Source: a virus. From it: DNA of 64,000 nucleotides. Under the pieces are notes generated by a model. That model was not told where the DNA came from. It searched no databases and saw only the letters and a program-made list of their open reading frames with translations. Of this stretch, positions 1 to 63,387 are shown piece by piece. Where the stretch lies: positions 1-64,000 of the IMG/VR virus record IMGVR_UViG_3300020411_003161; one strand, 5' to 3'. Position numbers and translations under genes: made by a program. The stretch's first letter is position 1; each line of letters opens with the position of its first letter.

Positions 1-1424
1 TAATTCTTTGGAAAATATTTTTTATATTGTTGGTAATTAGCATTATCCTTTGAAAAGTTCATAGCTCTGAATATAGAATTTAGTGCCTGTCCTAATTGTT
101 TACTTGGTTTTAAGTTTGGATTTTTCTTCTTGATAAGATTAATAATATCTCTACCTATTACCATCAATACTTTTTTATCACTTGGTCTTAGAGCTTCATT
201 TACGGATTCATTAGCAGATAAAGAAGAAATGATTTCTGCCTTTTTTATAGGGTGAATTAAGTGTGAATTTCTATATCTTTTTATTACATGGTTATAATGT
301 TTCTGTGTCATCTTAATAGCATCTGATTTTGTATTGCCATACTTGACCAATTGTTGTACAATAAAATTCATTTCTTGCCAGCCCGATTGGTATTGTCGTC
401 TTTCATTTATGGATTCTATTATAGTAGGGTACAACTTACCCCCTAAAGCTATTTCAGCACCAAATTTATGATTCCAAATAGTTCTGTAAGCATCTTTCAT
501 TCTTTTTATTGCAGCCTTTGATGGTTTAGAAGCAACAACATCTGCTATTTTTTGAAATTTTTTAAGTTCTGATTGGAATGTTTTAATTTTAACATCTGCA
601 CCATCAGCCTTTGGGTGTGGTTTATATTTATGTTTTATACCTGCTTTAATAGAATTTTTAAGTGGTCCTTCAAAAGCTCTCATTACCTCTTTAGGGTCTT
701 TACCATCTTTAATCACTAACTCATATATACCATCAACATTATTATGGATTGCCTGAGCAATTCTCACACCACCCTTATCTTTTGCTTTTCTGTAACCTTC
801 ATTTACGGATTCTTTCGCATACCCTTTCATCTTTTTAGCATATTTAGTAAGTTTAGCTATATTTTTTTTCATATCCTCACCACCTCTATAATCATTATAA
901 AAACTAGCAATCGTATCTGGTAAAGAACTACCTTTACTGAATTTATCTTTTAAATATTTACTTACTTTGCCAAAATGTTGAATTCTTGTATGATCATATT
1001 GTTTAAATGTTTTATCTAAATCTTTATAGATTTGTGTCATTTGATTAGTACCTTCATTCAATTGATACTCATCAATAACTTCATCTAAAATCTTATCAAT
1101 CATTGGATTAAAATCAGGACTCTCTTTTTTTAAACGACTCTTTTCAGCTCTTCCACGATTTTTGGATTGTGATTCAAAACCTACAATCTTCCCACCCTTA
1201 TGTGATGCATCTTTACCATCACCATTTCCATAAGTACCTTTCTTACGATTGTACTTATTTAGTTCTGCTCTGTATTTTTTGGCTTTGGTGGATGATTGGA
1301 ACTTCTTATATTCGTCTTTATAATCCCTTTCGGCTTCATTCTTCTTTTTCTTTTCCCACTTTTTAGCCATTTCGGGTTCATTAGCATGCATCCATTTCCG
1401 TTGTTTTTCAGATTTGAAGGGCAT
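1..1424 (-). CDS. Putative scaffold or head-internal protein, 3' end cut by window edge
   Basis: An open frame of 474 codons runs off the left edge without a stop. The ATG at 1424 follows GAGGGG and lies one base after the protease stop codon, so the two are translationally coupled. The N-terminus (KSEKQRKWMHANEPEMAKKW) is a very basic, Trp-containing motif that I recall from other marine phage proteins; residues 20-100 are rich in Lys and Arg. The rest is mostly helical and lacks a recognised enzyme motif. Four candidate prohead-protease sites are visible: LNE|G at 122-125, VNE|G at 207-210, INE|R at 339-342 and VNE|A at 408-411. In T4 the gene after the gp21 protease is the gp22 scaffold, which is cut at LxE|A-type sites, so a scaffold or internal head protein is my inference. 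The true length is unknown. Confidence 0.7.
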   Translation of the reverse strand, partial: MPFKSEKQRKWMHANEPEMAKKWEKKKKNEAERDYKDEYKKFQSSTKAKKYRAELNKYNRKKGTYGNGDGKDASHKGGKIVGFESQSKNRGRAEKSRLKKESPDFNPMIDKILDEVIDEYQLNEGTNQMTQIYKDLDKTFKQYDHTRIQHFGKVSKYLKDKFSKGSSLPDTIASFYNDYRGGEDMKKNIAKLTKYAKKMKGYAKESVNEGYRKAKDKGGVRIAQAIHNNVDGIYELVIKDGKDPKEVMRAFEGPLKNSIKAGIKHKYKPHPKADGADVKIKTFQSELKKFQKIADVVASKPSKAAIKRMKDAYRTIWNHKFGAEIALGGKLYPTIIESINERRQYQSGWQEMNFIVQQLVKYGNTKSDAIKMTQKHYNHVIKRYRNSHLIHPIKKAEIISSLSANESVNEALRPSDKKVLMVIGRDIINLIKKKNPNLKPSKQLGQALNSIFRAMNFSKDNANYQQYKKYFPKN

Positions 1425-1425
1425 T

Positions 1426-2025
1426 TTAACCCCTCATTATATCAGAAACAATTTGTTCTATCTTACCATATTTAGTAACTTTTTTCTGAACGCCTTCATT
1501 TACGGGTCTCATAAATGCACCATGCGTAGATGGATTAGAAACGAAATCAAAAGCAATTAATTCAAAATCAGGTTGGACTTCAACAGTATCATCTCCCGCT
1601 TCCTGCATAGGTTCTACACTACCCAATCCTCTAGAACTAATTCCTAATTTGATTCCTGATTTAAATAATTCTTTTAATATATTTCCAGCAGGTGTTGAAA
1701 GAACTTCAACAGTACCTAATAAATCATCACCATCCCAATGCATCTCAACGATGTTATGTGAAGCGTTATTTAGATTCACAACAGATGATTCTGGATGATC
1801 GAGTTCACCTAATGCTCTTCTTTCTTGAACATTCGTATCCAAATATTTTCCTACTTCTCGTAATAATACATCTCTTGGATATACTCTTCCATTCTGATTT
1901 TTAGACTCAGCTCTTTGTAAGACACCTTTAACAACCAACTTACCACCATTCTTCTCCATCGACTCATGGATTTGTGTTGGTGATATTTCAAAAGGCCTTA
2001 CATCTACTAATAATTGTTTATTCAT
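1426..2025 (-). CDS. 21: Prohead core protease, T4 gp21-like
   Basis: Serine protease (S77/gp21-like) that matures the prohead by cutting scaffold, capsid and internal proteins inside the assembling head. The 199-residue length is close to T4 gp21. Visible catalytic signatures are the His in GELDHPE (His77) and the Ser in GISSRGLGSV (Ser130 or Ser131), followed by a conserved FDFVSNPSTHGAFM stretch. A candidate self-cleavage site, VNE|G, lies at 175-178, consistent with autoprocessing in this family. I chose the ATG at 2025 because AGGGA precedes it; a longer in-frame start at 2052 would overlap the upstream gene and has no ribosome binding site. It follows the portal by three small genes, as in T4-like head modules. 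Confidence 0.93.
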   Translation of the reverse strand: MNKQLLVDVRPFEISPTQIHESMEKNGGKLVVKGVLQRAESKNQNGRVYPRDVLLREVGKYLDTNVQERRALGELDHPESSVVNLNNASHNIVEMHWDGDDLLGTVEVLSTPAGNILKELFKSGIKLGISSRGLGSVEPMQEAGDDTVEVQPDFELIAFDFVSNPSTHGAFMRPVNEGVQKKVTKYGKIEQIVSDIMRG

Positions 2026-2027
2026 AA

Positions 2028-2231
2028 TTAATCCCTTGTAAAAGTTTTCCAATCAGCTCCATTGTATATGTAAATTTTATCACTAGCCGTACTATAGGTC
2101 ATCGAACCCTTTACTGGATTAGCTACTTGTGCATCTGCATTTGTAGCAAAGGTTTGTATAAAACTTGGATTATGTCTAACCAATTGTTTTGGAACCTGTT
2201 TTTTATTATTATTAGGATCTACTTTATACAA
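2028..2231 (-). CDS. Small conserved-looking protein, unknown function
   Basis: 67 residues, probably started by TTG at 2231, immediately after the previous stop codon and preceded by a strong GGAGG. The C-terminal half (GSMTYSTASDKIYIYNGADW) resembles the short beta-type segment seen in phage fibre and structural proteins that display an 'x-YxxxxxKxYIYNG-W' pattern, for example the end of the 43691-44263 product here. It lies between two head-assembly genes, so a small virion or head-accessory role is possible. No enzymatic motif, signal peptide or membrane segment is visible. The non-ATG start is inferred from the ribosome binding site and gene packing. Confidence 0.6.
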   Translation of the reverse strand: MYKVDPNNNKKQVPKQLVRHNPSFIQTFATNADAQVANPVKGSMTYSTASDKIYIYNGADWKTFTRD

Positions 2232-3415: not shown

Positions 3416-5173
3416 TTACTCTTCAATTATATTCTCCTCAGATAGTAAATCGGTTTCCTCAAATGGTACTTTTTGTGGAAATTTATCCTTCAATTGTGAT
3501 AAAATACCTTCTCTCGCTACAACTGTGGAAGCTTTTGATTGTGCTAATGGTGAACCACCTTTAAATTCTCTTTTACCAAAACTTCTGTGTCTTTTTTCTA
3601 CCTTTCCATCATCTTCTCGCGGTTCGTTTCCGTTAAAATGAGACTTCTCACTACCACCCCAATCATCAGGTCTTGCCATTTCATCATCCATTGGTTCATC
3701 TGGTTCTTGTGGGTTTTCAGCTGGATCTTGACCTTCAGTTTCAATTTGTTCAAATCTAAACCTCTGTTTTGTATCCTCAACCATTTCTTCAAATACAGTT
3801 TCTTTTTCCCCATCATTTAAATCAAATATATTTTCATAAATCCAATTACGACTAAACAATTTCACATCCATAGCCGTTGTTGCAGCTTCTAATCTCTGAT
3901 TCAGCAACTCTAATTTTTCTTGTTCATGTATCATAGATGGATTCTGTAATTCCAAGTCGAAATCAATCAATGATTCATCCGCAAAACCTTGAGTGTATAA
4001 ATGTATAATACCTATTTTTGTTAATTCACTTACAACAATCTTTTGAATTCTTTCTATGGTTCGAGCAAACCTAACATCTTCAGCAGCCAATGTAGCCTTA
4101 CCACCACTTAATCCTTCTTCATAACCTAAGAAAGCCTTTGGTATCCTTAGAGCCGCCATCATCTTATTTCTCAAATATTCAACATCTTCTATTTGGTCAT
4201 TATTTGAAAGACCTGGCAGAGTATCAACCTCTGTTCCACTATCACCACCACGAACAGGTAGAAAGTAATCTTCGGTTACACTCTCTATATTATATTTTAA
4301 ATTGTAATCACCTGTCTTTTGGTCAATTACAGGAACCTTTTTCAACTTACTAACAATTTTATTCATAAATTGTTCAACTTCTCTCGGTGGTATGTTTCCA
4401 ACATCAACCTTAAATATTCTTTTTTCCGGCGCCCTCATGATTCTGTGAATCAACATCGCATCTTCCATTAAGGTTAACTGCTTAAAAAGCCGCCTTGCTC
4501 CCTCAAGCATACTCTTACCATATGGTAGAAAGTTTGAATCGGAAAGTAATCTGAAATGTGCTACCTCATAGTTTTCTAAAAGTTCTTTTCTATCCCTTTC
4601 TAACTCAAATTGTATCAATTGTGGTTGTCTAGGATCATGATCTTCAAGTCTAACTACATCATAACTAGAAAGTGGTTTTACACCAATTACTCCATGTTTA
4701 TCAACTATGTCTAATTGAAGAAAAAAGTCCCCATACTTCGTAAGATTTCGTATCCAACTCCATAGATTAAATTCAACATTTAAAATATCATAAAAAAGAT
4801 TATGAAGTATCTTCTCCACTTTAGTATTATTAGTTCTTATCTTTAATATCTCACCCTCAATATTATCAACAGTACACTCATCTGAATAAATGTCCAATGC
4901 AGAAGATATAATTGAGTCTTGATCCATAAATTCATAATCTTTAAACAAATCTCTTTTTTGTACCTCATAATTAGCTCTTTGATTCTGAGCTGCACTATAT
5001 GGTGAATTATAAGTTTGTTGTACTAACCTATCATATCTATCAATGAAATTTGAAGCATATGCTTTTTGTGAATGATCTATGTCTTTAACAATCAATCTAT
5101 CATCATCAGTTTTTCTGATAATTACTTGTGATTGAAATAATCTACCTAGTCGTTTAAAAATATTATCTGCCAT
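3416..5173 (-). CDS. 20: Portal vertex protein, T4 gp20-like
   Basis: 585 residues, slightly longer than T4 gp20 (about 520). The portal is the dodecameric ring at the head vertex through which DNA is packaged and ejected, and it nucleates prohead assembly. The gp20-type core is recognisable by its order of segments: an N-terminal DRYDRLVQQTYNSP region, a central LMEDAMLIHRIMRAPEKRIFK block, DYFLPVRGGDSGTEVDTLPG, and YLRNKMMAALRIPKAFLG. The last roughly 110 residues are acidic, then basic and low in complexity (repeated EDP, DEP and RED segments), an extension beyond the T4 core. The gene follows the terminase by six bases; in T4 the tail sheath and tube genes lie between gp17 and gp20, and they are absent here. 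Confidence 0.95.
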   Translation of the reverse strand: MADNIFKRLGRLFQSQVIIRKTDDDRLIVKDIDHSQKAYASNFIDRYDRLVQQTYNSPYSAAQNQRANYEVQKRDLFKDYEFMDQDSIISSALDIYSDECTVDNIEGEILKIRTNNTKVEKILHNLFYDILNVEFNLWSWIRNLTKYGDFFLQLDIVDKHGVIGVKPLSSYDVVRLEDHDPRQPQLIQFELERDRKELLENYEVAHFRLLSDSNFLPYGKSMLEGARRLFKQLTLMEDAMLIHRIMRAPEKRIFKVDVGNIPPREVEQFMNKIVSKLKKVPVIDQKTGDYNLKYNIESVTEDYFLPVRGGDSGTEVDTLPGLSNNDQIEDVEYLRNKMMAALRIPKAFLGYEEGLSGGKATLAAEDVRFARTIERIQKIVVSELTKIGIIHLYTQGFADESLIDFDLELQNPSMIHEQEKLELLNQRLEAATTAMDVKLFSRNWIYENIFDLNDGEKETVFEEMVEDTKQRFRFEQIETEGQDPAENPQEPDEPMDDEMARPDDWGGSEKSHFNGNEPREDDGKVEKRHRSFGKREFKGGSPLAQSKASTVVAREGILSQLKDKFPQKVPFEETDLLSEENIIEE

Positions 5174-5179
5174 AATTTA

Positions 5180-6757
5180 TTATCCTAATAACCAACTTAA
5201 ATCTTCTTTTTCTCCATTAATTTCCATCTCGTATGGATTATTTTTTGGTTTATTGTTAGTAATTATTGGTGTTCTCTCATTTAAATTTCCAATTGAATCC
5301 ACTATACTACTTTGAAATTCATTTCTCTCTGATTGTATTCTAATAGCAGTATCTCTTATCCATAATAATATAGAGTAAGACATCACCAAATCATCATTAT
5401 ACCCATCAAGAGCTTCAGTTTTCGTATTCTTATATATAAATACAAAAAGTTCATCAATTAACCTCGTTGACTTTAACTTAACCATCTTCTCTCTTGTGTA
5501 TTCTTCCATTTTAGCAACAACCAATGGTTTAGTTTTCATTGTTGTTGTAAAACCAGGAACTTTATTTCTATCAATACTACGATACCTATTTGTATAATGG
5601 TGTTCTTCATCAACTACCAAATGATTTTTTTCTTGATAAAATAAATTTTCATATCCCCTATCAATAATTGTTTGTAATGTAGCCCATCCTATATTGTTAT
5701 TCTCAACAACCAAAAGGGCATCATTATATTTAGTGGCAAGTTCAATTAAGAAATTACCAAATTCTGTTGTGCCGAGTTGTCCTTTATATTCCGCAACTTG
5801 CTCCATTTCCTCTAAATCGAAAACCTGTGCTGCACTAAAATCTGTCCCATCTCCCCTTGCAACATCGGCACATATTAAATAATTTTTTGAATAATTTGGA
5901 TAATCCCAAATCCAAAGATTTCTATCAAAACCACTTTTTTCTACTGGTTCACAACACATCTTTTCTTTATACCACTCTAAGATAGCAGGATCAACAACAG
6001 AACGACCAGAACTTAGAAAATCAGCATCACATTCTTGTGCGGCCTGTGAAGGACCTAATATTTTATCCTGCTCTCTTCTCCAATCCTCATCTCTTTCAGG
6101 ATGTTCAGACCAATGTAATTTTACTGTATTAAATTTATTTACTTCATCTGTAGCATCAATCCAAGTTTTATGAAACCAATTACCAACACCATTTGGTGTG
6201 GATATGGCTAAACATTTACCACCAGTAGCCAATGTCTGTTGAGCGGCAGTCCATATAGTATCAATTTTTTCAATAAAAGCGGCCTCATCTAATATTAATA
6301 AAGATAGCGCTTCTGAACGACCTGCACTTTCATTAGAAGCAATAGCTTTGATTTGTGAACCATTTTTAAACACTAATGATAGTTTATTGTTCTCAACAAT
6401 AGCAGTTTTCAACCAGGCTGGCAAACCATCATACATAACACGAACTTTTGTAATTAAATTTTTAGCAGTATCTTTGGTGGTAGCAATTACCAAAATATTT
6501 TTATCATTTTGGAACAACATCATCCATAAAGAATAAGCAGCACTTAATGTAGATATACCTAATTGTCTTGATTTTAATACAATATTATATTCATTCTTTT
6601 GATATTCATTTAACACATCATATTGAAATGGATATAATTTAAACTTTATCTTACCTCTTTGTGGATGTTGAATCGTACAATATTGATTAATAAAGTATGA
6701 AGGATCTTTAGCACATTTAAGATAATTTTGTTTTATTGCTTGTTTTAAATCACTCAT
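5180..6757 (-). CDS. 17: Terminase large subunit, T4 gp17-like
   Basis: 525-residue DNA-packaging motor: an N-terminal ATPase drives DNA through the portal and a C-terminal RNase H-like nuclease cuts headful lengths. Visible motifs are the Walker A-type KSRQLGIST (62-70), the Walker B LLILDE (153-158) with a following AAFIE, the coupling motif STPNG near 186-190, and the nuclease acidic residues Asp298 (ICADVARG), Glu352 (LVVENNN) and Asp455/Asp456 (YNDDLV). Length and order match gp17. The start codon overlaps the stop of the upstream four-Cys gene by four bases (ATGA), so packaging is translationally coupled to that gene and, through it, to the RNA-repair genes. Confidence 0.96.
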   Translation of the reverse strand: MSDLKQAIKQNYLKCAKDPSYFINQYCTIQHPQRGKIKFKLYPFQYDVLNEYQKNEYNIVLKSRQLGISTLSAAYSLWMMLFQNDKNILVIATTKDTAKNLITKVRVMYDGLPAWLKTAIVENNKLSLVFKNGSQIKAIASNESAGRSEALSLLILDEAAFIEKIDTIWTAAQQTLATGGKCLAISTPNGVGNWFHKTWIDATDEVNKFNTVKLHWSEHPERDEDWRREQDKILGPSQAAQECDADFLSSGRSVVDPAILEWYKEKMCCEPVEKSGFDRNLWIWDYPNYSKNYLICADVARGDGTDFSAAQVFDLEEMEQVAEYKGQLGTTEFGNFLIELATKYNDALLVVENNNIGWATLQTIIDRGYENLFYQEKNHLVVDEEHHYTNRYRSIDRNKVPGFTTTMKTKPLVVAKMEEYTREKMVKLKSTRLIDELFVFIYKNTKTEALDGYNDDLVMSYSILLWIRDTAIRIQSERNEFQSSIVDSIGNLNERTPIITNNKPKNNPYEMEINGEKEDLSWLLG

Positions 6758-7236
6758 TTTCTATGCTCATGTCCAGCTAATGCAGTAGCTACTTTCTTAT
6801 CAAATTTTAAAGCTTTTGAATTTTGAACTTCTTCAAATTCTTGCTCATACTCTTTAAGTATAGTTTCCCATCTTTTTTCTTCCATCTCTTTAACCCAATC
6901 TTGCCATTCCCCCTTACGATGTAAATCAGCCTCAAATTCCATTTGACAAACTCTACATCTTTGAAATCTATTATAAGTCTGTTGGTCTAAAGTTTTTAAA
7001 ATAAGTTTTTTACAATCACTACCTTCCCAACCACTACACTTATCAAATCCCTTTGGTGGAATTTTAGTAATCTGTTTTCTCTCACCATTCTCCATAACAA
7101 ATTTTCTACCACTTGGTTCTTCCCAAATCTCACCCTCTCTTCTCATATGGATAGTTTTTGGTGTGTACCCAATTCTCGGAGTTCCTCTACCACCAACACC
7201 AGCTACTAATTTTTTAATTTTTTCTATCTTATTCAT
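6754..7236 (-). CDS. Four-cysteine putative zinc protein upstream of terminase
   Basis: 160 residues. Cys67 and Cys75 (KCSGWEGSDC) plus Cys94 and Cys97 (RCRVC) form a likely zinc-binding set. Before it lies a GEIWEE...ENGERKQITK segment and after it FEADLHRKGEWQDWV and a long charged helix. I recall this architecture (a GD/EIWE-type strand, two Cys pairs, an LxxxGxWxxW helix) from small proteins next to terminase in marine myoviruses. It sits where T4 has the small terminase gp16, but gp16 is a helical protein without these cysteines, so I do not call it TerS. Four-base overlaps couple it to genes on both sides. Confidence 0.75.
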   Translation of the reverse strand: MNKIEKIKKLVAGVGGRGTPRIGYTPKTIHMRREGEIWEEPSGRKFVMENGERKQITKIPPKGFDKCSGWEGSDCKKLILKTLDQQTYNRFQRCRVCQMEFEADLHRKGEWQDWVKEMEEKRWETILKEYEQEFEEVQNSKALKFDKKVATALAGHEHRK

Positions 7237-8819
7237 ACTCTTCCACCCTTATCCATTGTAGAAAACTTTTTAAGTTTATCAAATGCTCTAAACTTTTTCA
7301 TCTTATCTTGTTTAGTCCATTTCATCTTATCAAATACCTTCATTCTCATATGTTGTTTTACTATATAATAAATGTCTAATACATTACCACCCATCGATTT
7401 TATCCACTTAGCATATTTCTTAACGAGTTTTGCTGATACATGCTCGTGTCCGTAATGTGTCCAAAAACCTTTCTTTGGATGTAAAGCCGCAGTTTCATCT
7501 TTTCCTATGTCGTGAAATAAAGCTGCAAGTGCAAAGTCTATATCACCTGTTTTTAATGCTCTATTAGTTACAGCTATAGTATGTTTTAAAACATTACCCT
7601 CTGGATGTGCATCTCTTCTTTGATCATAATTTTTAAGATTATAAACCCTCTTCTTTAAATCAATTGGTAGTGCATTATAAATGTCTCTAAATTTTTTTGG
7701 TTTAGGTCTTGCTGCAATTTCATTTAAGAATTTATCCTTTTCCATTTTTTGTATTGCTTTACCTATATCCTTTCCTTTTAAATTACTTGGAACATCACTA
7801 CCTTTTACTGATAATTTAAATGTGACTAATTTTTTAAAATCTTTTCCTATGTATTTACCCCATTTAAGAATTTGAACTTTACTCAATTTAGTTTTTTCTT
7901 GAAACTTTTTAATCAAAAAAATATTATCAGGTTTGAAATTCTGTAATAAATTCAAAAACTGAATATCAACTATTTCTTGATTAGGATAGGCTAAGCCATT
8001 CAATTTCCTTATTGAATTTACATTATTTTTTCGTAAAATCCAAGCTAAAAATAAAATATAATCGTTTTCGTTTATATATGGAGCATTAACTTGAAAACCA
8101 GGTAATATCTGTTTTGTAAATCCTAATGAATCAGCTAATTGTAAATACCTTTTAGTTGATTTTGCCTTTTTGATTGATTTAACAAATTCATCTCTTACTC
8201 TTTCTTTACTAACACCTTTAAGACTTGGATTTTGTCTTAGTGCCTTTTCTGTTTCTTTTCCTAACTTACCACCAAGTGCACCTTGAAATCTTAATGCTCT
8301 CATCTTTCTCAACGGATCCTCATCAAATCTTTCGATTGGTTTTCCAACTGTTCTGATTTTCTTTTTTTGTAAATCCTCAATTCCACCAACTAAATCAACT
8401 ATCTCATCCCTATCCAAATCATAGAATAAAGCGTTGATAGTTAAATCTCTCCGTTTAACATCACCTTCGATGTCGGTATAATCAACTGAACTTGGGCGTC
8501 TTCCCTTACCAATATCCTTTCTGAATGTTGCTATTTCATGTCCACCAACTATCACGACACCGAATTGTTTTCCAACCTCTACGGTTTTCAACCCACCTTT
8601 CTTTGCTATCTTTAATACCTCGTCAGGTTTGGCATCGGTGGCTAAATCAAAATCTTTTGGGTTCTTTCCTAATATTGCATCCCTAACTGCTCCACCAACA
8701 ACAAAAAGTTTTTTCTTGTTTTTCTTAAAAAGTCTGTGTATATTCTTTATGTCACTGGGGACTTTAAGCTTTAATTTAGAATATTCATTCAACGGAATTA
8801 AATTGGAAAGAGAAATCAT
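7233..8819 (-). CDS. cca: CCA-adding tRNA nucleotidyltransferase with HD domain
   Basis: 528 residues. It would add or repair the 3' CCA of tRNAs using CTP and ATP. The class II nucleotidyltransferase head is clear: FVVGGAVRDAILG (39-51), the metal-binding DFD (56-58), RRDLTINAL (123-131) and DPLRKMRALRF (168-178). The C-terminal part holds an HD phosphohydrolase signature (HTIAVTNRAL and ALFHDIGKDE), as in the bacterial Cca proteins that carry 2',3'-cyclic phosphodiesterase or phosphatase activity. The first residues (MISLSNLIPLNE|YSKL) look like a short leader ending in L-x-E, possibly a capsid-targeting sequence. It overlaps its neighbours by four bases on both sides. Its location between a ligase-like protein and the terminase gene is unusual. 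Confidence 0.9.
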   Translation of the reverse strand: MISLSNLIPLNEYSKLKLKVPSDIKNIHRLFKKNKKKLFVVGGAVRDAILGKNPKDFDLATDAKPDEVLKIAKKGGLKTVEVGKQFGVVIVGGHEIATFRKDIGKGRRPSSVDYTDIEGDVKRRDLTINALFYDLDRDEIVDLVGGIEDLQKKKIRTVGKPIERFDEDPLRKMRALRFQGALGGKLGKETEKALRQNPSLKGVSKERVRDEFVKSIKKAKSTKRYLQLADSLGFTKQILPGFQVNAPYINENDYILFLAWILRKNNVNSIRKLNGLAYPNQEIVDIQFLNLLQNFKPDNIFLIKKFQEKTKLSKVQILKWGKYIGKDFKKLVTFKLSVKGSDVPSNLKGKDIGKAIQKMEKDKFLNEIAARPKPKKFRDIYNALPIDLKKRVYNLKNYDQRRDAHPEGNVLKHTIAVTNRALKTGDIDFALAALFHDIGKDETAALHPKKGFWTHYGHEHVSAKLVKKYAKWIKSMGGNVLDIYYIVKQHMRMKVFDKMKWTKQDKMKKFRAFDKLKKFSTMDKGGRV

Positions 8820-11800
8820 CTTCCAAATGTCATCATACCAGTTATTTGATTAACTGGAGCAAATGCTCCTGTAAATTTGTAAGTTTTACCATTATATTTA
8901 AAAACTATACCCTCTGATGGTATTATAGCATCCAACCCACCTATAGCATTCAACCTATCCAATTGAACTTTTAGTTTACTTAATTTATTTAAATCACCAC
9001 CACTTCGTATCGTAGATATTGCAGCTTTTACTTTTGCTCTAATACTTTGTATCGACTTATCTGGATTTACTGCTAACCAACCCTCTACATTTTTCATTAT
9101 CTCAGCACCAACACCAAAAAATAATTCCTCAAATGGTTTCATATTATCTTTGACCATCTTAGAATGATCCATTTTATCTGTAGTTAATACCCAATCTAAA
9201 AACTTTGGGTAGTCTTTAAAATCTTTTTTAATCATTGGTATGGTATATGATTTATCAAAAAATGCCCATCGTTTTGTTAATTTAATCAATATATCATTTG
9301 TTAACTTTGGATTATCGGTTTGTTTAGCACCATTCATAATCCACTCCTGCCAATAATGTTGATGATATAAAGCTAGGGTATCATTATCCTTCAATCCATA
9401 TGTTGATTGTAACTTCTTCAATTGCCCTAAAAACTTATCCTTCATCTTTCCAAAGTCTTGATGTTTAGGAACATTGAGAAAATTTGGTTTCCCAATCTTA
9501 TATTTTTTCTGTATGTTTTGATTTATTTGTTTTATCATTCCAGCTAACATTCTTGCACTATCTTTTGCCTGTCCGACAACTCTTGCACTATCATCATATT
9601 CCAACGCTCCATGAAATATAATTTGAGTAACATCATAATTAATTACATTCTCACTAGCAGGCCACAAAACCTCTAAGTTCATCCATTTATTACCATTACC
9701 GAAAATCTTAACCTGTTGTTTCTTACTTAAAGAACCTATAGCCTTTTGTAAGTCCCTAACAGCAAATACGAAAGCATCTCTTATCTTTCCCCTACCTTTG
9801 AATTTAGATTGAACACCCTTAACACTTAAAGCACTTTTACCACTATTTTTTATATGTCCTTTATTACGAGCAACAATTAATCTCCCATCTCTCCAACTAA
9901 CCATAAGATTTTGCCCATCTAATTTTTCTGTAACTCCATCTTCTCTATTTAATTGTCCACCCAAACCCATAGTGATAATTTTTTTCAAATCACCAAATGT
10001 TAAATCTTTGTCATCAAAAGGATGTGCCATATGTCCGTATGCTCCACCCATTAATAATAACTCCTTTCCGTTTCTTGATTTTTTTGAATTTAATATTTCT
10101 TGATAAACAACTTTTAATCTTCCTTTGTCTATTTCTTTATCTTTATGTAATTTTTCCATTTCTGGTTTATTAATCACAAGTTTTGGTTTTTCGCCCGGTT
10201 TATTACTACCAACAGTCGGTACAGCATAATAGGCTTTTCTAAATCCAAACTTTTTAGCAGCTATATGACCTTTACCACCATATTTTTTAACCAAATCTTT
10301 TTCTGCCTCTTCTCTGGAATATCTAATCTTAATACCTCTACGCATCAATCTTTGTTTCCAAATCTTGACTTTCTTAGATACTTCTGCTAGTGACTTCACT
10401 TCTTTTACTATCGACAATTCATCATGTTGTTCATCACCAACTCTTTCAGGTGTTTGTTCTGGCTCTTCAGCATCCATTTGTTTTGCTGTATCTCGACTAT
10501 GTTTCACTACAGATTTTCTTGTATTTGCCAAATCATCAACATACTCATAATCTTGATTAGATAAAATCATATCAATGTGGTCTAACCAACGATTCCACAA
10601 TTCAGTACCTACATAATCTGATAAATTTTGAGCACTTGGTTCATTAATACCAGCTGGACCAAACGAAACAGAATCCACTGGACCTTTTGGATAATCAGTG
10701 TCTTTTCTATAATCTCTGTATTGTGATTTGTAACTATCAAAATCTACTAACATATCAGATAGTTCCCACCCCAATCTTCCGGCCTCAATAGCAGCTCTTT
10801 TTTCATAAGCACTTAAACTTGAAAACATAGAAGGACCGTCATCTACTTCACCCGCAGTATTTAAATTGCTATTTTCAAACAAATGATTATAAAACTCAAA
10901 CAACTTTTTAAACTTATTTGTCATCATATTATACACATTCTTATCGTAATATCCAAATGCCTTTTTAAATAATTTTTGTCGTTTTTTATCATCAAATTCA
11001 GAAGAACCTAATAACTGTCTCATCACAGTTCCACTAACTTCCTTACCAGCAACACTTACACTCTGATGTGGTGCTGTCATAATATATCCGTGCTCTTTGT
11101 GTCCCTTTAAATTACCTTTATTCTTTTTATAATCCTGATAATAAGTTAAACCACCACTCTTCTTTTTTCCACCAATTAATCTACCAGCATCTTTCTTACC
11201 AAAAATATAAATAACTGCAGTTGTTTCTGGGTCGTATTTCTTTAATAAATTATTTGCAACATATGGCATTTTCTCTTGAACTATACGATTCTTTGGTACA
11301 CCCATCTTTATCATATGTTGAACCTTTTCTTTAAAGTTCATTGGATGTCTTGGTGGTTTCTTTATATTCGATGTAGTGATATAAACCTCATCCACTTTAC
11401 TCTCTAACCATTTATAAGTTTTTAAATGATGTGGACCAAATGGTTGAAATCTTCCAGGATATATACCAATTACTTTTTTAATTTTAGATGGAGCTTCATT
11501 TACCCTTTTATAACCACTCATTGAATTGGTTTTATTTTTATTAATCTTTTTTCTTTTTGGGCTACCTTGAATTACACCATCACCACCAACAATTCCCTCT
11601 TCATCAAAAATATTAACTCGACTATGAATCCTAAATGTAGCAGCTTTTCTTCCATTTATTGTTGGCATTCCATGTTTATCTTTACCGATACTTTTGACTT
11701 TCATCTTTTTATTTTTAAATTTACCAACAAGGATAGTATCACCAACTTTAATTGGTATATTGATATCCTCTTTCATTATCTTTTGTTTTTCAATCCATCG

Positions 11801-12526
11801 TTTTCCACGATAATTCTTAATAGGTTTTTTAATGAATTTATTGATTCCCTTTTTCATCAACATATCAAATTTCTTTTGGGCGGCTTCTTCACCCAAAGTT
11901 TTTGAATTATCCACCATCAAAAAGTTCTCATTTCCAAATAATCCTTGAAAAGAAATCTTATTTTTCTGTACATCCTTCCAACTATCTTCTACTAACTCAG
12001 GATTAAGTTTTCTTGGTCTTTCCATATTTCTTTTTTGAGCTACTTCTAAATCCGTATGGACAAAAACCATAAAACAATCATAACCTATCTCTTCTAATTC
12101 TTTCTTTTTCTTTTTTATAGAACCATATTTATGCCCCGTACCATCGATTATCAACCCCAATCGACCATCCATATACATTTTTTTACGGGCTTTTGTTAAT
12201 TCTTTTGCTCTACTTCTCAATCCACTATAATCTTCATAATCAGGATCTGTAAGTTGTCTAAATAGTTCTTCTGGCATATCGTCTAAGTCTGTACCAAATC
12301 CGTATTTCTTTAGCATACGAGTTAATTCTTTATCTTGATTAACAAGCTTCATACCATAAGCAGATACATTGACTTTCTTTGGTATTCCAAATAAACCCTG
12401 AGAGACAAACCCTTTACCACTACCAGGACCACCAGCAAGAAATACTGCTTTTAAAATACCAGGATCGTTGATACCCTCTTCTAAAAAAGGCTTAGTTATT
12501 TCTTCTACTAATTTCTTTAAACTCAT
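8816..12526 (-). CDS. Multidomain P-loop kinase, NMNAT-like adenylyltransferase and RNA-ligase-like protein
   Basis: 1236 residues with at least four modules. Residues about 27-235 are a P-loop kinase: Walker A AGGPGSGKG (31-39), IDGTGH (127-132) and FVHTDLEVAQKRNMER. Residues 258-300 look like a small SH3/KOW-type barrel (VGDTILVGKFKNKKMKVKSIG). Residues about 351-545 are an NMNAT/cytidylyltransferase domain: GIYPGRFQPFGPHH (a HxGH variant) and the late VSGTVMR motif. The C-terminal part is a nucleotidyltransferase-superfamily ligase: EKLDG with Lys868, WMNLEVLW (948-955), EGIVFKY (1205-1211) and KTYKFTG (1214-1220). Candidate protease sites LEE|G (15-18) and VNE|A (342-345) fall at the N-terminus and just before the adenylyltransferase. 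Together with the CCA enzyme it suggests RNA or tRNA end healing, sealing and possibly NAD metabolism. The exact substrates are unknown. Confidence 0.85.
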   Translation of the reverse strand: MSLKKLVEEITKPFLEEGINDPGILKAVFLAGGPGSGKGFVSQGLFGIPKKVNVSAYGMKLVNQDKELTRMLKKYGFGTDLDDMPEELFRQLTDPDYEDYSGLRSRAKELTKARKKMYMDGRLGLIIDGTGHKYGSIKKKKKELEEIGYDCFMVFVHTDLEVAQKRNMERPRKLNPELVEDSWKDVQKNKISFQGLFGNENFLMVDNSKTLGEEAAQKKFDMLMKKGINKFIKKPIKNYRGKRWIEKQKIMKEDINIPIKVGDTILVGKFKNKKMKVKSIGKDKHGMPTINGRKAATFRIHSRVNIFDEEGIVGGDGVIQGSPKRKKINKNKTNSMSGYKRVNEAPSKIKKVIGIYPGRFQPFGPHHLKTYKWLESKVDEVYITTSNIKKPPRHPMNFKEKVQHMIKMGVPKNRIVQEKMPYVANNLLKKYDPETTAVIYIFGKKDAGRLIGGKKKSGGLTYYQDYKKNKGNLKGHKEHGYIMTAPHQSVSVAGKEVSGTVMRQLLGSSEFDDKKRQKLFKKAFGYYDKNVYNMMTNKFKKLFEFYNHLFENSNLNTAGEVDDGPSMFSSLSAYEKRAAIEAGRLGWELSDMLVDFDSYKSQYRDYRKDTDYPKGPVDSVSFGPAGINEPSAQNLSDYVGTELWNRWLDHIDMILSNQDYEYVDDLANTRKSVVKHSRDTAKQMDAEEPEQTPERVGDEQHDELSIVKEVKSLAEVSKKVKIWKQRLMRRGIKIRYSREEAEKDLVKKYGGKGHIAAKKFGFRKAYYAVPTVGSNKPGEKPKLVINKPEMEKLHKDKEIDKGRLKVVYQEILNSKKSRNGKELLLMGGAYGHMAHPFDDKDLTFGDLKKIITMGLGGQLNREDGVTEKLDGQNLMVSWRDGRLIVARNKGHIKNSGKSALSVKGVQSKFKGRGKIRDAFVFAVRDLQKAIGSLSKKQQVKIFGNGNKWMNLEVLWPASENVINYDVTQIIFHGALEYDDSARVVGQAKDSARMLAGMIKQINQNIQKKYKIGKPNFLNVPKHQDFGKMKDKFLGQLKKLQSTYGLKDNDTLALYHQHYWQEWIMNGAKQTDNPKLTNDILIKLTKRWAFFDKSYTIPMIKKDFKDYPKFLDWVLTTDKMDHSKMVKDNMKPFEELFFGVGAEIMKNVEGWLAVNPDKSIQSIRAKVKAAISTIRSGGDLNKLSKLKVQLDRLNAIGGLDAIIPSEGIVFKYNGKTYKFTGAFAPVNQITGMMTFGR

Positions 12527-16089: not shown

Positions 16090-17196
16090 TTATGATGATG
16101 TATTTCTTTGTCCCCCACCAAAATTCTCAATATTTCTTATAATAACATCCGGATTAAAAATTTGTTCATAATTTGTATATGGACATTCATGAACATTATT
16201 ATCAAATTGGTAATCAAACATATAACTACCCATCGTCTGATTTGCTAAAATTGGATTTTTAGCAATAATATTATTATGAAAATCATATCCAAAAACTTTA
16301 GGTGATGTCCCAATCCACAAAACTGTTGATGGTAATTGAAATGCCCTAGCAGCATGTTGTAAACAACTGTCATTTAAAACTCTAATCGATGAATTAGCTA
16401 ATATAGAAAATAACTCTATATTTGACATTTGTCCATCAATTCTCTCAACACCATTTAAAATTGGTGATTCTTTTCTACATACATGATAAATGTGAAATTC
16501 ATTTACAAATCTATTTACAATTTGTTGTGAAAGTTCGAATGGTATATCCCTACACCAATTATAAGGATATTTTTGTCCCACAAATGGACCACCATTAGTT
16601 TGTAATACCATCGTTGGTTTTTCCCTTATCCATATTGATGAAAGTTGTTGTTGTGCATAATTTAAAATAACACCCGGCGTCATCTCCTTTTCATTATATT
16701 CCAAATCCATCAAATCACACCAGTTATGTATCAAATGTTGAGATTTTTGTACATGAGCAGTTTGATTATAAGCTTCATGTCTATAAAGTATTGTATCTTT
16801 GTCTCTAATATAATCATCATAAAAATGTGGTGTATTTCCTATCTGATAAAGTTTATCAACAATAGGATGATTAGACCAAACCTCAGGCCAAGAAGCAACT
16901 ATAATTAATTTCCTATCATTATATTTAGACTTTAAAGCAGGTAATAAAGCAGTAGCTGCTACATTCTTTCCCAAACCTCCTTGGACATGCCAAATCAAAT
17001 ATTTGTCTTCAACAACATTATTCCTACTCATATCCTTAGTTTCAATCTCTTTATTAGTAACCTTTTTCACATCTTTATCATAAGAAGACCAACTAGAACC
17101 TGATGATTTTTTTGATGATTTGTCAGCAGAAGACCAAGTAGATTTATCTTTTGAACTAACTTTCTTTACATTTTTAACTTTAGTTTTCTTTTTCAT
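16090..17196 (-). CDS. GT9-like (heptosyltransferase-type) glycosyltransferase
   Basis: 368 residues. After a Lys/Ser/Trp-rich low-complexity N-terminus (1-60, with WSSADKSS and WSSYDK repeats) comes a Rossmann-type start, IWHVQGGLGKNVAATALLPAL (about 68-88), which corresponds to the GGLGD...P.L loop of ADP-heptose:LPS heptosyltransferases. The C-terminal half has the matching NDSCLQHAARA...STVLWIGTSPKVFG donor-site pattern. GT9-type enzymes transfer sugars to LPS or proteins in the cytoplasm. Here the gene is the last of a series with four 2OG-Fe(II) oxygenases (one-base overlap with the preceding gene), so it may glycosylate a hydroxylated phage protein or alter the host surface; this is inference. 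Confidence 0.8.
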   Translation of the reverse strand: MKKKTKVKNVKKVSSKDKSTWSSADKSSKKSSGSSWSSYDKDVKKVTNKEIETKDMSRNNVVEDKYLIWHVQGGLGKNVAATALLPALKSKYNDRKLIIVASWPEVWSNHPIVDKLYQIGNTPHFYDDYIRDKDTILYRHEAYNQTAHVQKSQHLIHNWCDLMDLEYNEKEMTPGVILNYAQQQLSSIWIREKPTMVLQTNGGPFVGQKYPYNWCRDIPFELSQQIVNRFVNEFHIYHVCRKESPILNGVERIDGQMSNIELFSILANSSIRVLNDSCLQHAARAFQLPSTVLWIGTSPKVFGYDFHNNIIAKNPILANQTMGSYMFDYQFDNNVHECPYTNYEQIFNPDVIIRNIENFGGGQRNTSS

Positions 17197-17870
17197 TAAA
17201 CAACCCTATTAAATAGCAATTCTGTTAAACTTCCCTTATCACCCACACCACCCTTTGGAACGATATTCATCGATATACTTTTTCTTACTATATTTGTAGT
17301 ATTCATCGGTACAGAATGTTGTAAATATGATGGAAATAAAATAAACTTTCCCACATCAAAGGATATTGCAAATGAGTTCCAAGTATTTGGATTTTTTTCA
17401 TTAAATTTTTTTTCAATTGAAAAAGTATTAAAAGAAGAAAAAGCCTGTGGTTTATGAAACTCAATAGCGGATGTATCATCCGCCACTCCCCCATAAAAAA
17501 ACACTCCAGATATTATACTATTAGGGTGTGTATGTGCAATATGTGATTGACCTGGCTCCTTATGTGATACCCATGTTTGGGAAAAAATCCATTCATCTAC
17601 ATCATAACCCAAAACTTTATCGTTATATTCTTTAACTTTTTTTAAAATATATTTTTTAAATTCTTTACATTCAGGCTCATCCAATATATAAGTGTTTTTA
17701 GAATGGCTACCATATTGTTTAGTGTTTCCATTACTATCTGGATTATGCTCCTGTTCATCAAAAAAATTACAAATTTGTGCATATTCGTTTGGTAAATTTA
17801 TCAAACGAATGGGTGTTGGATATATATTCATATCATATGAACCACCTTCCCTTATAGTTTCACTCATCAT
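17196..17870 (-). CDS. 2OG-Fe(II) oxygenase, TIGR02466-like
   Basis: 224 residues. The double-stranded beta-helix iron site is visible as HTHPNSIISGVFF (His113, His115) and the distal FPSYLQHSV (His185), the pattern of the TIGR02466 group of putative 2-oxoglutarate/iron-dependent oxygenases. These enzymes hydroxylate proteins or small molecules, consuming O2 and 2-oxoglutarate; the substrate here is unknown. A second Met at residue 14 (MNIYPTP) preceded by a purine-rich stretch could be the true start. It overlaps the upstream oxygenase by four bases and the GT9-like gene by one base. It is one of four such genes in a row and most similar in layout to 17867-18499. Confidence 0.85.
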   Translation of the reverse strand: MMSETIREGGSYDMNIYPTPIRLINLPNEYAQICNFFDEQEHNPDSNGNTKQYGSHSKNTYILDEPECKEFKKYILKKVKEYNDKVLGYDVDEWIFSQTWVSHKEPGQSHIAHTHPNSIISGVFFYGGVADDTSAIEFHKPQAFSSFNTFSIEKKFNEKNPNTWNSFAISFDVGKFILFPSYLQHSVPMNTTNIVRKSISMNIVPKGGVGDKGSLTELLFNRVV

Positions 17871-18499
17871 CTTTTACCTATTCTTTCTTTTGCTGGTTTC
17901 CTACTGGGTGGTATACAAAAATTTATAGATAATACAACTCTAGTCTCATCACTAAGATTTTGTGTAACAGAGTGTTGTAACCACGATGGAAAAATTAGAA
18001 GTAATCCTTCCTTAGCCTTAAAACTTCGATTTAAAGCTGTATACTCACTAGTACCCATCATGTCAGTAAAATAATATTCTCCATGATCATCTCTATGCAA
18101 AACTATATCCCCCCCATTTTCTGGAGCTTTTATATAATACGCACAAGACAAAAAACTTCCCATATGATGATGTGTTTGATTATAATCATATTTCTTATTA
18201 GTTATAAACCAATAGTTTCCGATGTGGAGATTATCAATACCAGTATATTTTGAACAATAATCATTTACAAACTCAGTACAATCACTCAACAATTCCACAA
18301 AACAATCAGGAGGTGTATCCCCTTCCTCATATGGATGAGAATGCCAACCACCAATATTTGAACGGCGAACACCAGCTGGATCCTGATTCTCTCTATCATA
18401 AACAAATTTTAATATAGATTCATTATCTATACCAGTTATTTGTGTCTCCCATACATATGTGGGAAATACAATATGATCTTTTACATGAAATTCTAACAT
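17867..18499 (-). CDS. 2OG-Fe(II) oxygenase, TIGR02466-like
   Basis: 210 residues with the same layout as the next gene: an NYW...KKYDYNQTHHHMGSFLSCAYYI-type block (His110-His112), an acidic GGDIVLHRDDHG loop and the distal LLIFPSWLQHSV (His176), followed by TRVVLSINF. The sequence is clearly diverged from its neighbour, so the pair is an old duplication or two independent acquisitions. It starts at a TAATG overlap with the preceding hydroxylase. The expected activity is iron- and 2-oxoglutarate-dependent hydroxylation in the host cytoplasm; the substrate cannot be read from sequence. Confidence 0.85.
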   Translation of the reverse strand: MLEFHVKDHIVFPTYVWETQITGIDNESILKFVYDRENQDPAGVRRSNIGGWHSHPYEEGDTPPDCFVELLSDCTEFVNDYCSKYTGIDNLHIGNYWFITNKKYDYNQTHHHMGSFLSCAYYIKAPENGGDIVLHRDDHGEYYFTDMMGTSEYTALNRSFKAKEGLLLIFPSWLQHSVTQNLSDETRVVLSINFCIPPSRKPAKERIGKR

Positions 18500-19113
18500 T
18501 ATCTAAACGGTTTATTACTACCTGTCCAAAAAACTAAAGCTTTCCTCTCCCCACTTTTTATTGGTGTAACTCTATGCATAAAAAAAGATGGAAATATCAA
18601 CACATCACCTTTTTCCCTTGGAAAATTTATAAAACCATTTTGCCCACCATACCAACATTGAAAGTCACCACCCTCATAATCATCTGGATCACTTAATTGT
18701 ACTGTAGTAGCTAACTTTCTTCGATTTACATTACCATAACCTATATCCATATGCCAATCTAAATGTCCACTATCTGTAGGATATATCACATAATGTAATT
18801 GATCTGTCACTTTATCTATATCAAATTGAAATAAATTATCATTAGCCTCTAATACCATTTTAAATAAAACTTCATATATCCATTTACTATCATCCTGATA
18901 TGGAACATAAGCAATATCCCTATTATTAGTTCTTTCTGTATCCGTTTCGTCACCATAACCAGTCCTTCCTTTTGAAAATGGATATCTACCATTATAAATC
19001 ATAGAATGAGTCTTTTCAATCATCTCATCAGTAAATGCATTTTTGAAATAATAAAAATCATTAAAATTACATTTTGGTTCTAAATCTAAAGTAGGAAATT
19101 CAAATATCTTCAT
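18499..19113 (-). CDS. Prolyl-4-hydroxylase-type (PKHD) 2OG-Fe(II) oxygenase
   Basis: 204 residues from the ATG at 19113, which has AAGGA five bases upstream; the longer start at 19131 has no ribosome binding site. The facial triad is textbook: HMD (His121, Asp123) in SGHLDWHMDIGYG and the distal His180 in LIFPSFFMHRV, with the 2-oxoglutarate-binding Arg190/Lys191 in GERKALVFW. The segment EGGDFQCWYGG is typical of PKHD-type hydroxylases. It would hydroxylate a prolyl or similar residue, or a small molecule. It overlaps the upstream oxygenase by 14 bases. Of the four oxygenases here this has the most canonical HxD...H site. Confidence 0.9.
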   Translation of the reverse strand: MKIFEFPTLDLEPKCNFNDFYYFKNAFTDEMIEKTHSMIYNGRYPFSKGRTGYGDETDTERTNNRDIAYVPYQDDSKWIYEVLFKMVLEANDNLFQFDIDKVTDQLHYVIYPTDSGHLDWHMDIGYGNVNRRKLATTVQLSDPDDYEGGDFQCWYGGQNGFINFPREKGDVLIFPSFFMHRVTPIKSGERKALVFWTGSNKPFR

Positions 19114-19819
19114 TCTTATCCTTAACCTCATATAAAGGATGATACTTATCCATCATCCCAATTGCACTAAGTTCGAATGTATCATCTTTATATGCTCCCG
19201 TTTCATCATCAACGATTTTAGAATAAAGTGGTTCAATAAATTGATACCATCCTGTTAGAATATATTTTGTTTCATTTGGTGCTACAATTCCCCTATGGAC
19301 ATGTGTAAAATCTGCTGGCCATATACAAAGTTTTCCAGCTTCAGCTCTTTCAAAATGTTGTTGATAAAAAAATTCTGTCTCACCACCTATTTCAACATCA
19401 TTTAAATATATCATCCACGCATGCGTTCTAGGAAAAAATTGATTACTAGCTCTCTCACAATGCATTATTTTATAACCACCACCAGGTTTGTATCTTTGCA
19501 TATTAAACATTAATGACAGACCTATCTCATCTATATTATCCATAGCGAGATAATAATATCTTTCATAATCTCTTAATCCATCTTGCAAACATGGTACTAT
19601 ATTTTCATTCAAATAAGGACCAAAATCTTCATCTTCTAAAAATTTAGGTGAAAAAGTTATATCAGTAGAAGATTTTATATTCTCATCTTTAACTGTCACT
19701 CCATCAGTACCAAAAACACCATCTATATGTAACTCAGTTCTTTTTTCAAATAAGTTTATAAATGAATTACATACATCTTTAGATAGTGCATTTTTACGAA
19801 CATGTATGAATGATGTCAA
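19100..19819 (-). CDS. 2OG-Fe(II) oxygenase, P4H-like
   Basis: 239 residues. The core reads YKPGGGYKIMHCERAS (His120, Glu122), then HAWMIYLNDVEIGGETEFFY and KLCIWPADFTHVHRG (His173 or His175), with Lys185 in ETKYILTGW as the likely 2-oxoglutarate ligand. The first iron ligand pair is HxE rather than the usual HxD; both carboxylates are used in this superfamily. It is the first of the four oxygenases in transcription order and begins four bases after the 238-residue helical protein. The substrate is unknown. Confidence 0.85.
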   Translation of the reverse strand: MTSFIHVRKNALSKDVCNSFINLFEKRTELHIDGVFGTDGVTVKDENIKSSTDITFSPKFLEDEDFGPYLNENIVPCLQDGLRDYERYYYLAMDNIDEIGLSLMFNMQRYKPGGGYKIMHCERASNQFFPRTHAWMIYLNDVEIGGETEFFYQQHFERAEAGKLCIWPADFTHVHRGIVAPNETKYILTGWYQFIEPLYSKIVDDETGAYKDDTFELSAIGMMDKYHPLYEVKDKNEDI

Positions 19820-61549: not shown

Positions 61550-61927
61550 TTACTTCTTTTTTAGAAATTCCTTTGCCATCTTTTGACCATACTTTTCTGC
61601 TTTCTTTTCAAAGTAGTTATCATCGTGAGCGTCACCACCTTTATCAACAGCAATATTCATTTCCGTTTCATATCTTTTTTTATATCCCTTCTTTCCATAT
61701 TTTTTAGCATCAAGAGCATGGTCAATCTCGTGATATACTGTAACTAAAAAATCTTTAAAATTGGAAGTTGGTTTAATGTTAATTATATCATCATCTACAT
61801 TATAATCAGCTTTATTTTTTCCAGTGTTTTTAAATTTTATTTTTGATTTTAATCCAGCTTGTCTAACTATTTCTGTAGCAATTTGATGAAAATCCACCCT
61901 TTCATTTAATATATCCATTAATTTCAT
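61550..61927 (-). CDS. Small HExxH metallopeptidase with possible capsid-targeting leader
   Basis: 125 residues. The zinc-binding motif HEIDH (His66, Glu67, His70) sits in a helix of the form FLVTVYHEIDHALDAKKYG, and a later acidic stretch (DKGGDAHDDNYFEKKAEKYG) may hold the third ligand. The N-terminus MKLMDILNE|RVDF is short and amphipathic and ends in L-x-E, like the capsid-targeting leaders of T4 internal proteins (for example MKTYQEFIAE). The ATG lies four bases after an ATATTTAT element; the second Met (residue 4) is an alternative start. It could cut a host protein after injection or act in the virion; substrate unknown. Confidence 0.75.
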   Translation of the reverse strand: MKLMDILNERVDFHQIATEIVRQAGLKSKIKFKNTGKNKADYNVDDDIINIKPTSNFKDFLVTVYHEIDHALDAKKYGKKGYKKRYETEMNIAVDKGGDAHDDNYFEKKAEKYGQKMAKEFLKKK

Positions 61928-63050: not shown

Positions 63051-63387
63051 TATTCATTCTCCTATGATATAGTTTAGTTCCATCGAATTGCCACTCATTA
63101 TCTTCATCGGGTATTCCCAATTCATGAGTAACGATTACATTTCTCGTACGACCTAAAACAGATAATGGGTGTTCAGGCCAACTTTGTTGTCCTGTTAACT
63201 CATATTGTTTCTTTGCATAAACTTCTAACTCTTTCCAAATCTGATATGTAAATTCCTTTTCATGTTTCAATTCTTCCAATTCAATCCTTTTTTCAAATCT
63301 TGGTACAGCCACTGCACTCATAATACCAATAATCAGAATCACTATCATCAACTCAATTAGAGTGAATCCTTTAAGTGATACTTTCAT
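62983..63387 (-). CDS. Type IV pilin / type II secretion pseudopilin-like protein
   Basis: 134 residues. The class III (prepilin) signal is textbook: MKVSLKG|FTLIELMIVILIIGIMSAVA, with a basic leader, Gly at -1, Phe at +1 and Glu at +5, then a roughly 20-residue hydrophobic helix and an acidic/basic amphipathic helix (RFEKRIELEELKHEKEF). The C-terminal globular part is short and beta-rich (DEDNEWQFDGTKLYHRRMNNEIWYFEYN), as in pseudopilins (GspH/GspI size). It needs a prepilin peptidase, which would be provided by the host. GGGGAGA precedes the ATG; it overlaps the preceding pilin gene by one base. Confidence 0.9.
   Translation of the reverse strand: MKVSLKGFTLIELMIVILIIGIMSAVAVPRFEKRIELEELKHEKEFTYQIWKELEVYAKKQYELTGQQSWPEHPLSVLGRTRNVIVTHELGIPDEDNEWQFDGTKLYHRRMNNEIWYFEYNPNTFYLSEYSIRL

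Follow-up and report, generated by a model that had tools for sequence, protein, structure and literature searches.

A predicted prohead-processed enzyme polyprotein with RNA-repair-type domains in marine T4-like phages

The closest described counterparts of the proteins studied here are the internal head proteins of phage T4 (IPI–III and Alt). In T4 the first 10 residues form the capsid targeting sequence, which is removed by a cut of the prohead protease gp21, an enzyme that cleaves after L/I-x-E (PMC9026906). We analysed a window of 64,000 nucleotides (positions 1–64,000 of the viral IMG/VR record IMGVR_UViG_3300020411_003161, 64,259 bases in full) that encodes a 1236-residue protein with several enzyme domains and, in the next gene, a 528-residue protein with a CCA-type nucleotidyltransferase and an HD domain (Table 1). 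As for the T4 proteins, there is a short leader ending in L/I-x-E, a prohead protease encoded in the same genome and a late head operon. T4 cargo, however, consists of single small proteins or Alt, whereas here we see a multi-enzyme chain with internal sites and RNA-repair-type domains. Judging from the sequence, we think it rather probable that both proteins are precursors, processed in the prohead into head-packaged enzymes that enter the cell with the DNA and repair cleaved tRNA or other RNA.

Polyvalent proteins (Iyer et al. 2017, PMC5512222) also combine many unlike enzyme domains in one polypeptide and are predicted to be injected with the DNA. Their release is thought to be the work of embedded peptidases, whereas here the prohead protease would release the enzymes at defined sites; Pfam finds no peptidase domain within the 1236- or the 528-residue protein. 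The text of that paper contains neither NMNAT nor adenylyltransferase, and it reports that 2H domains did not occur together with RNA ligases. T4 Pnkp (PseT)/Rnl1 and bacterial Pnkp share with our locus the kinase fold and motifs and a ligase-like fold with KxDG and motifs III, IV and V. They differ from it in that the locus adds an HD domain and a CCA enzyme, has a large helical insertion in the ligase and no Rnl1 sequence match, and shows no HAD phosphatase among the proteins examined. Jumbo phages likewise carry an RNA ligase, a polynucleotide kinase, a CCA enzyme and NAD enzymes; the available portion of that source describes them as phage-encoded counter-defence genes and mentions neither fusion nor head packaging (PMC7824862). 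Precedents thus exist for each idea, in T4 internal proteins, polyvalent proteins, phage tRNA repair and NMNATs of virions. A processed enzyme polyprotein of this kind we did not find described in the literature searched, which had subscription papers and preprints outside its scope.

Conserved sites at module borders

Among 81 non-redundant kinase modules, the residue directly ahead of the kinase (P1) is glutamate in all 81, P3 is Leu (50), Ile (21), Val (9) or Phe (1), P2 can be almost any residue and P1' is glycine in 80. The kinases follow unrelated sequences, which can be a short leader, the small module or some other domain. In Straboviridae kinases (about 30% identity) the Glu-Gly is not conserved, and the leader still ends in L-x-E (e.g. 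MKSFKDFTSLDE). Hence, the pattern is not merely part of the kinase fold. Other borders carry the same kind of site. An [LIVM]xE occurs within 26 residues upstream of the NMNAT in 92 of 96 relatives, and the ligase starts with [LI]xE/GG in 64 of 79 (a slash marks the predicted cut). The HD domain, a module separable from the CCA enzyme, has glutamate ahead of it in 27 of 27 contexts, and so does a module beginning with cysteine in 11 of 11. The major capsid proteins of relatives keep (L/I)xE/A at the gp23 maturation point. In the window, the prohead protease gene lies 7–11 kb from the precursor genes.

The first-pass annotation of this DNA had taken the 1236-residue protein to be an RNA end-repair cassette working as a single polypeptide. 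The L/I-x-E sites at the module borders argue instead for a precursor that is cut by the prohead protease into separate enzymes. Mature ligase modules contain 2.3 L/I-x-E per 1000 residues versus 15.8 of the mirror motif E-x-L/I, a ratio of 0.14. For comparison, the kinase has a ratio of 0.76 and the NMNAT one of 1.17, and a related 216-kb genome has 0.98 when all its genes are taken together; depletion of the motif is therefore a property of the ligase and not of every module. Comparing linkers with modules gives an odds ratio of 2.5 for sites, calculated on sequences that are related to one another, so that its p-value is no more than indicative.

A second line of evidence comes from relatives with a broken ligase. 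In about 40 of them (L016, L114, L115, L234, L249, L258 and others) the ligase is encoded as two genes. The half with the catalytic lysine is a separate gene of 77–259 residues, downstream of the gene for the other half, and ends in EKLDGQNLMISWR(ND/ED), right after the catalytic motif. The C-terminal half sits inside the large polyprotein behind LITE/, LLSE/, MLNE/, GITE/ or LIKE/, and continues with (G)KLxAARNKG. All 23 of 23 C-terminal halves have [LIM]xE at the break, which in the AlphaFold model is a beta-hairpin turn between predicted strands 50–57 and 60–64. A site at the break in every C-terminal half is hard to explain unless it is really cut. No intein-like sequence was seen at the ends by eye, and we therefore rejected the idea that a split intein had broken the ligase.

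The module that begins with cysteine is one of the extra modules of relatives (L016:380-4276, L012:1914-6695, L015:4142-9412) and starts E/C[IV]A..FG..V.GKNRDRN. It looks like an N-terminal-nucleophile (Ntn-type) hydrolase, with no match in Pfam or PDB, so that we claim nothing for it other than the conserved E/C border; a prohead protease cut would expose its N-terminal Cys.

Leaders are found on separately encoded enzymes as well. Stand-alone kinases begin with MIKLMDLLTE/, MKSFEQILSE/ or MKTFAELQE/, which resemble the T4 IPIII type of leader. The CCA genes of relatives begin with MISLTELLPINE, MIKLRTLLPLNE, MNKLTHELIKDLLPINE or MRKFKNYIIE/. Virion mass spectrometry of cyanomyoviruses, including S-SCSM1 and S-CREM2, has detected NMNAT-like proteins. 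The genes of these two start with MKSFLQFLKE/A (S-SCSM1) and MKNFSSFLTE/A (S-CREM2). Both share with our system an NMNAT-type domain and such a leader, and differ from it as single-enzyme proteins; the accessible part of the virion work does not remark on the leader. In phage Atu_ph07 the protein AUZ94865, which has the kinase module, is by counting coding sequence 53 and falls within coding sequences 31–76, a range in which 29 proteins were found in virions, and it may be one of them. A 125-residue zincin-like metallopeptidase with HEIDH is encoded in the window (61550-61927, minus strand; MPTase-PolyVal E=2.8e-4, under the cut-off) and, given its leader MKLMDILNE/, is another likely head cargo.

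Under the proposed mechanism, the N-terminal leader would bring each precursor into the prohead core, and the gp21-type prohead protease would cut behind the L/I-x-E of the leader and of the module borders. The mature head would hold separate kinase, small-module, NMNAT, ligase-like, CCA nucleotidyltransferase and HD proteins. Entering the cell together with the DNA, these enzymes would act immediately on cleaved tRNA or other RNA: the HD protein would remove the 2',3'-cyclic or terminal phosphate, the kinase would phosphorylate the 5'-OH end, the ligase-like domain would seal and the CCA enzyme would rebuild 3' ends. The NMNAT may restore NAD+ or supply NAD-dependent partners. We assign 3'-end healing to the HD domain because the HD domain of the E. 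coli CCA enzyme has 2',3'-cyclic phosphodiesterase and phosphatase activity. The modules (at the level of fold), the conserved sites and leaders, the protease gene, the fusions and the coincidence of site and ligase break can be read from the sequences, whereas the cutting, the packaging of these particular proteins, their activity on RNA and the order of the repair steps are inferred. The wider statement would be that, in marine T4-like phages, an enzyme polyprotein cut by the prohead protease delivers a complete tRNA/RNA repair kit at DNA entry, and that in some relatives the same cuts expose an N-terminal Cys that may serve as a nucleophile and assemble the ligase from two separately encoded halves. 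We regard this wider statement as evenly balanced between right and wrong.

Module identities and relatives

The motifs on which the first-pass annotation had based its module assignments are where it placed them. A single open reading frame (ORF) holds the Walker A motif AGGPGSGKG at 31–39, GRFQPFGPHH, VSGTVMR, Lys868 in EKLDG and, at the C-terminus, EGIVFKY and KTYKFTG. Its P-loop kinase scores above the Pfam cut-off (AAA_33/Zeta_toxin, 29–185) and is polynucleotide-kinase-like by two further comparisons: hhalign to T4 PseT gives a probability of 90% (E=1.4e-6), and the five best Foldseek matches of the AlphaFold model are the Clostridium thermocellum Pnkp kinase domain (E about 2e-6). Fold and motif order agree with the Pnkp/PseT kinase domain. 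Adenylate kinases and zeta toxins follow closely in the fold search, so the fold does not fix the substrate. The assignment of an NMNAT-type adenylyltransferase was also supported; CTP_transf_like (PF01467) matches residues 355–439 above the cut-off, the profile of archaeal NMNAT 1f9a matches with E=1.4e-5, and SGTxxR is invariant. The following gene, as had been stated, encodes a CCA-type enzyme with an HD domain. It has the PolyA_pol and RNA-binding domains (PF01743 and PF12627) of class II CCA/poly(A) polymerases; its best NCBIfam match is CCA (1.3e-52, below the cut-off), with PcnB a close second.

The predicted fold of the C-terminal ligase-like domain is nearest to RNA ligases, which make up nearly all of the top matches, with scores that are weak. 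In an alignment of 37 sequences, EKxDGQN, the AR of ARN, Glu130, EG (383–384) and YK (394–395) are invariant, and with them all of motifs I (K46/D48/G49), III (E130), IV (E383/G384) and V (K395); adding 822 converts these model numbers to those of the window protein. The AlphaFold model has a pLDDT of 87.6 and a pTM of 0.82. Its first Foldseek match in the PDB is a fungal tRNA ligase (E=0.0044, probability 0.98, TM about 0.23), followed by an archaeal RNA ligase, T4 Rnl2, T4 Rnl1 and a Naegleria RNA ligase; DNA ligases are for the most part further down. RNA ligases also come directly after the domain's own relatives in the viral structure library. The low TM-scores are probably due to the helical insertion, about 190 residues long, that precedes motif IV. 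By sequence, the C-terminal 400 residues have no Pfam match and the domain has no meaningful match to solved structures. Homology to T4 Rnl1 was rejected (hhalign probability 0.5%). DUF6267, the family of cyanophage KxDG proteins, was not supported either (no Pfam match, hhalign probability 0.5%); the alignment is confined to the H-x-x-H...KxDG start, which both keep.

Close relatives of the 1236-residue ORF occur on 28 viral contigs, mostly at the same position ahead of TerL and portal. For the ligase domain the module searches gave at least 566 relatives among the matches listed, for the kinase at least 582. The modules are mobile. In 64 ORFs the kinase stands alone. The small barrel-like module is found at the N-terminus, behind the kinase, behind the NMNAT or as a separate gene; it is its own gene without a leader in four relatives and has E/ ahead of it in most of 19. 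In L258, L249, L250 and L256, CCA nucleotidyltransferase, HD, kinase, NMNAT and the ligase C-terminal half are joined in one ORF, and in L242, L245 and L235, CCA, HD, NMNAT and ligase. Such fusions are good evidence that the enzymes form one functional set, which bears out RNA repair as the common theme seen in the first-pass annotation, and the CCA enzyme among the fused modules points to tRNA. In Pelagibacter phage HTVC008M, a KxDG protein (DUF6267), the small module, the kinase and an NMNAT-like protein each have a gene of their own, side by side, and an NT5C-type HAD protein is encoded a few genes beyond that cluster. A cellular origin was dismissed, as bacterial and archaeal assemblies gave just nine loci, mostly short phage-like contigs of metagenome-assembled genomes.

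Points against a packaged RNA-repair kit and competing explanations

Several observations weigh against our interpretation. First, the RNA-ligase fold scores given above are weak. Second, the HxGH motif of the NMNAT reads GPHH in the window; some relatives have HSGH. Third, the ligase in the window starts with LLLMGG and not with LxE/GG; hence, the ligase may stay joined to the linker or be cut upstream. Fourth, taken by itself, the leader pattern shows no genome-wide enrichment in one relative (5 found, 3.6 expected), which is why our case is built on the conservation of module borders instead. Fifth, some cyanophage and pelagiphage homologues have no leader (HTVC008M NMNAT, P-HM1 DUF6267), and the authors of the virion studies allow for co-purification.

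One could also argue that the proteins are packaged and processed as proposed, and that they make up a small-molecule kit. Kinase and NMNAT would then replenish NAD+ in the face of defences that deplete it, and the ligase-like domain would adenylylate a target other than RNA. The NMNAT is the most clearly identified enzyme of the set, kinase–NMNAT pairs occur in NadR, NMNAT-like proteins recur in cyanophage virions, and a Nudix hydrolase gene with the leader MSIPKLLDLLE/ precedes the polyprotein in L002, L007 (L007:581-1009) and L009. We nevertheless consider this unlikely: the kinase is closest to polynucleotide kinases and the ligase-like domain to RNA ligases, and the fusion with a CCA enzyme and an HD domain points to tRNA.

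Improbable, in our opinion, is an intact multifunctional RNA-repair protein that is made and used in the infected cell and never packaged, with L-x-E as an ordinary linker. Such a protein would be compatible with a fusion that is real and conserved, and phage RNA repair genes normally act after expression (PMC7824862). It fits poorly with a P1 glutamate that is universal in unrelated contexts, with split-ligase sites that coincide with the break, with the depletion of L-x-E within ligase modules and with genes that lie in a head operon beside TerL. That the packaged enzymes mend DNA instead, such as nicks in the incoming genome or its blocked ends, seems very improbable. Kinase and KxDG ligase folds serve DNA ends too, and DNA ligases do occur further down the fold list. 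Against this, RNA ligases take first place in the PDB and come next after direct relatives in the viral library, and the family of the CCA enzyme is specific for tRNA.

The locus and what it may mean

The genes of the locus overlap by 4 bases at three junctions: between the 1236-residue ORF and the CCA-HD gene, between the latter and a 160-residue gene, and between that gene and TerL. Of the 'terminase partner' that the first-pass annotation had placed behind the CCA gene, the overlap stood and the label did not, since no family supports it. Its KOW-like barrel was a guess, and we call the small module barrel-like only.

Table 1. Features of the window, with positions in the window (a slash marks a predicted cut; residue numbers of sites in brackets)
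Feature	Position	Strand	Basis
1236-residue precursor: leader, kinase, small barrel-like module, NMNAT, helical 'DDGP' module with basic linker, ligase-like domain	8816..12526	-	ORF, Pfam, relatives
Leader, residues 1–17 MSLKKLVEEITKPFLEE, resembling a capsid targeting sequence; predicted site FLEE/G (17)	12476..12526	-	[LIVF]xE/G (one E/A) ahead of kinase in 81/81 relatives
P-loop polynucleotide-kinase-like module, residues 18–253	11768..12475	-	Pfam; hhalign to T4 PseT; AlphaFold/Foldseek
Small mobile module, residues 254–344; predicted sites IMKE/D (253) ahead, RVNE/A (344) behind	11495..11767	-	site conservation in 19 relatives
NMNAT-type adenylyltransferase, residues 345–551; predicted sites LFE (544, 551)	10874..11494	-	Pfam; PDB profile matches to archaeal NMNAT
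Helical 'DDGP' module and basic linker, residues 552–822; predicted sites VKE (709), LAE/V (715)	10061..10873	-	site list
KxDG nucleotidyltransferase (RNA-ligase-like), residues 823–1236, helical insertion of about 190 residues	8819..10060	-	invariant motifs, AlphaFold, Foldseek
Lys868 codon, predicted adenylylated lysine in EKLDGQN	9923..9925	-	invariant, 37 sequences
528-residue precursor: CCA-type nucleotidyltransferase and HD module	7233..8819	-	ORF, Pfam, NCBIfam
Leader MISLSNLIPLNE of CCA gene, ending PLNE/Y (12)	8784..8819	-	leaders of relatives
CCA-type nucleotidyltransferase, C-terminal end FLNE/I (367)	7719..8783	-	Pfam
HD phosphohydrolase module (IAARPKPKKF...)	7236..7718	-	Pfam HD 4.2e-9; E/ ahead in 27/27 contexts
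160-residue gene, weak Zn-ribbon match, conserved ahead of TerL	6754..7236	-	Pfam, relatives
Terminase large subunit (TerL)	5180..6757	-	Pfam
T4-type portal protein	3416..5173	-	Pfam
Prohead protease, Peptidase_S77, T4 gp21 family; proposed processing enzyme	1426..2052	-	PF03420 E=6.8e-30

Pfam gives no match for the 'DDGP' module with its basic linker. For the middle module, a HEPN hint (Pfam E=0.02) was dropped because the relatives do not, by eye, share the motif. The window contains no tRNA genes and no Rfam families, and an anti-phage-defence library returned nothing relevant, its sole matches being weak HD-domain ones to Cas proteins.

Other genes of the window and its relatives deserve mention. 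Next to the prohead protease, at 3-1424 (minus strand), a head-operon protein has repeated [LIV]NE sites (QLNE, SVNE, SINE) and is perhaps a core or cargo precursor. In L007 (4365-5225; L009 is alike) a 286-residue protein with the leader MIKLKDILLE/ occupies the position of the CCA gene in the window; it looks ADP-ribosyltransferase-like by eye and has no Pfam or PDB match, so we make no claim. A GIY-YIG-like homing endonuclease lies between the polyprotein gene and the Zn-ribbon gene in L012 (6705-7349), and the portal gene of LR756508 (L031:17484-18328) seems to carry an intein-like insert (CLAPETKVSTEFGERSICNIEPGDSV). Further away in the window, two genes at 62983-63830 (minus strand) have type IV pilin/pseudopilin-like N-termini (FTLIELMIVILIIG, FTLVELIVTITLVG), and a run of genes in the tail-fibre region (17196-19819, minus strand) resembles 2OG-Fe(II) oxygenases/prolyl hydroxylases by eye.

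A phage can be halted by RNA-cutting host defences, those against tRNA included, before its repair genes are expressed, and a repair kit borne by the particle would remove this delay. The module families are common, with more than 560 relatives each among the matches listed, and the split ligase offers a natural two-part nucleotidyltransferase for study. If our interpretation is true, then the prohead protease would be, beyond its role in capsid maturation, a polyprotein-processing protease for varied enzyme cargo, and the leader together with the L/I-x-E sites would give a simple rule to predict which proteins large T4-like phages inject.

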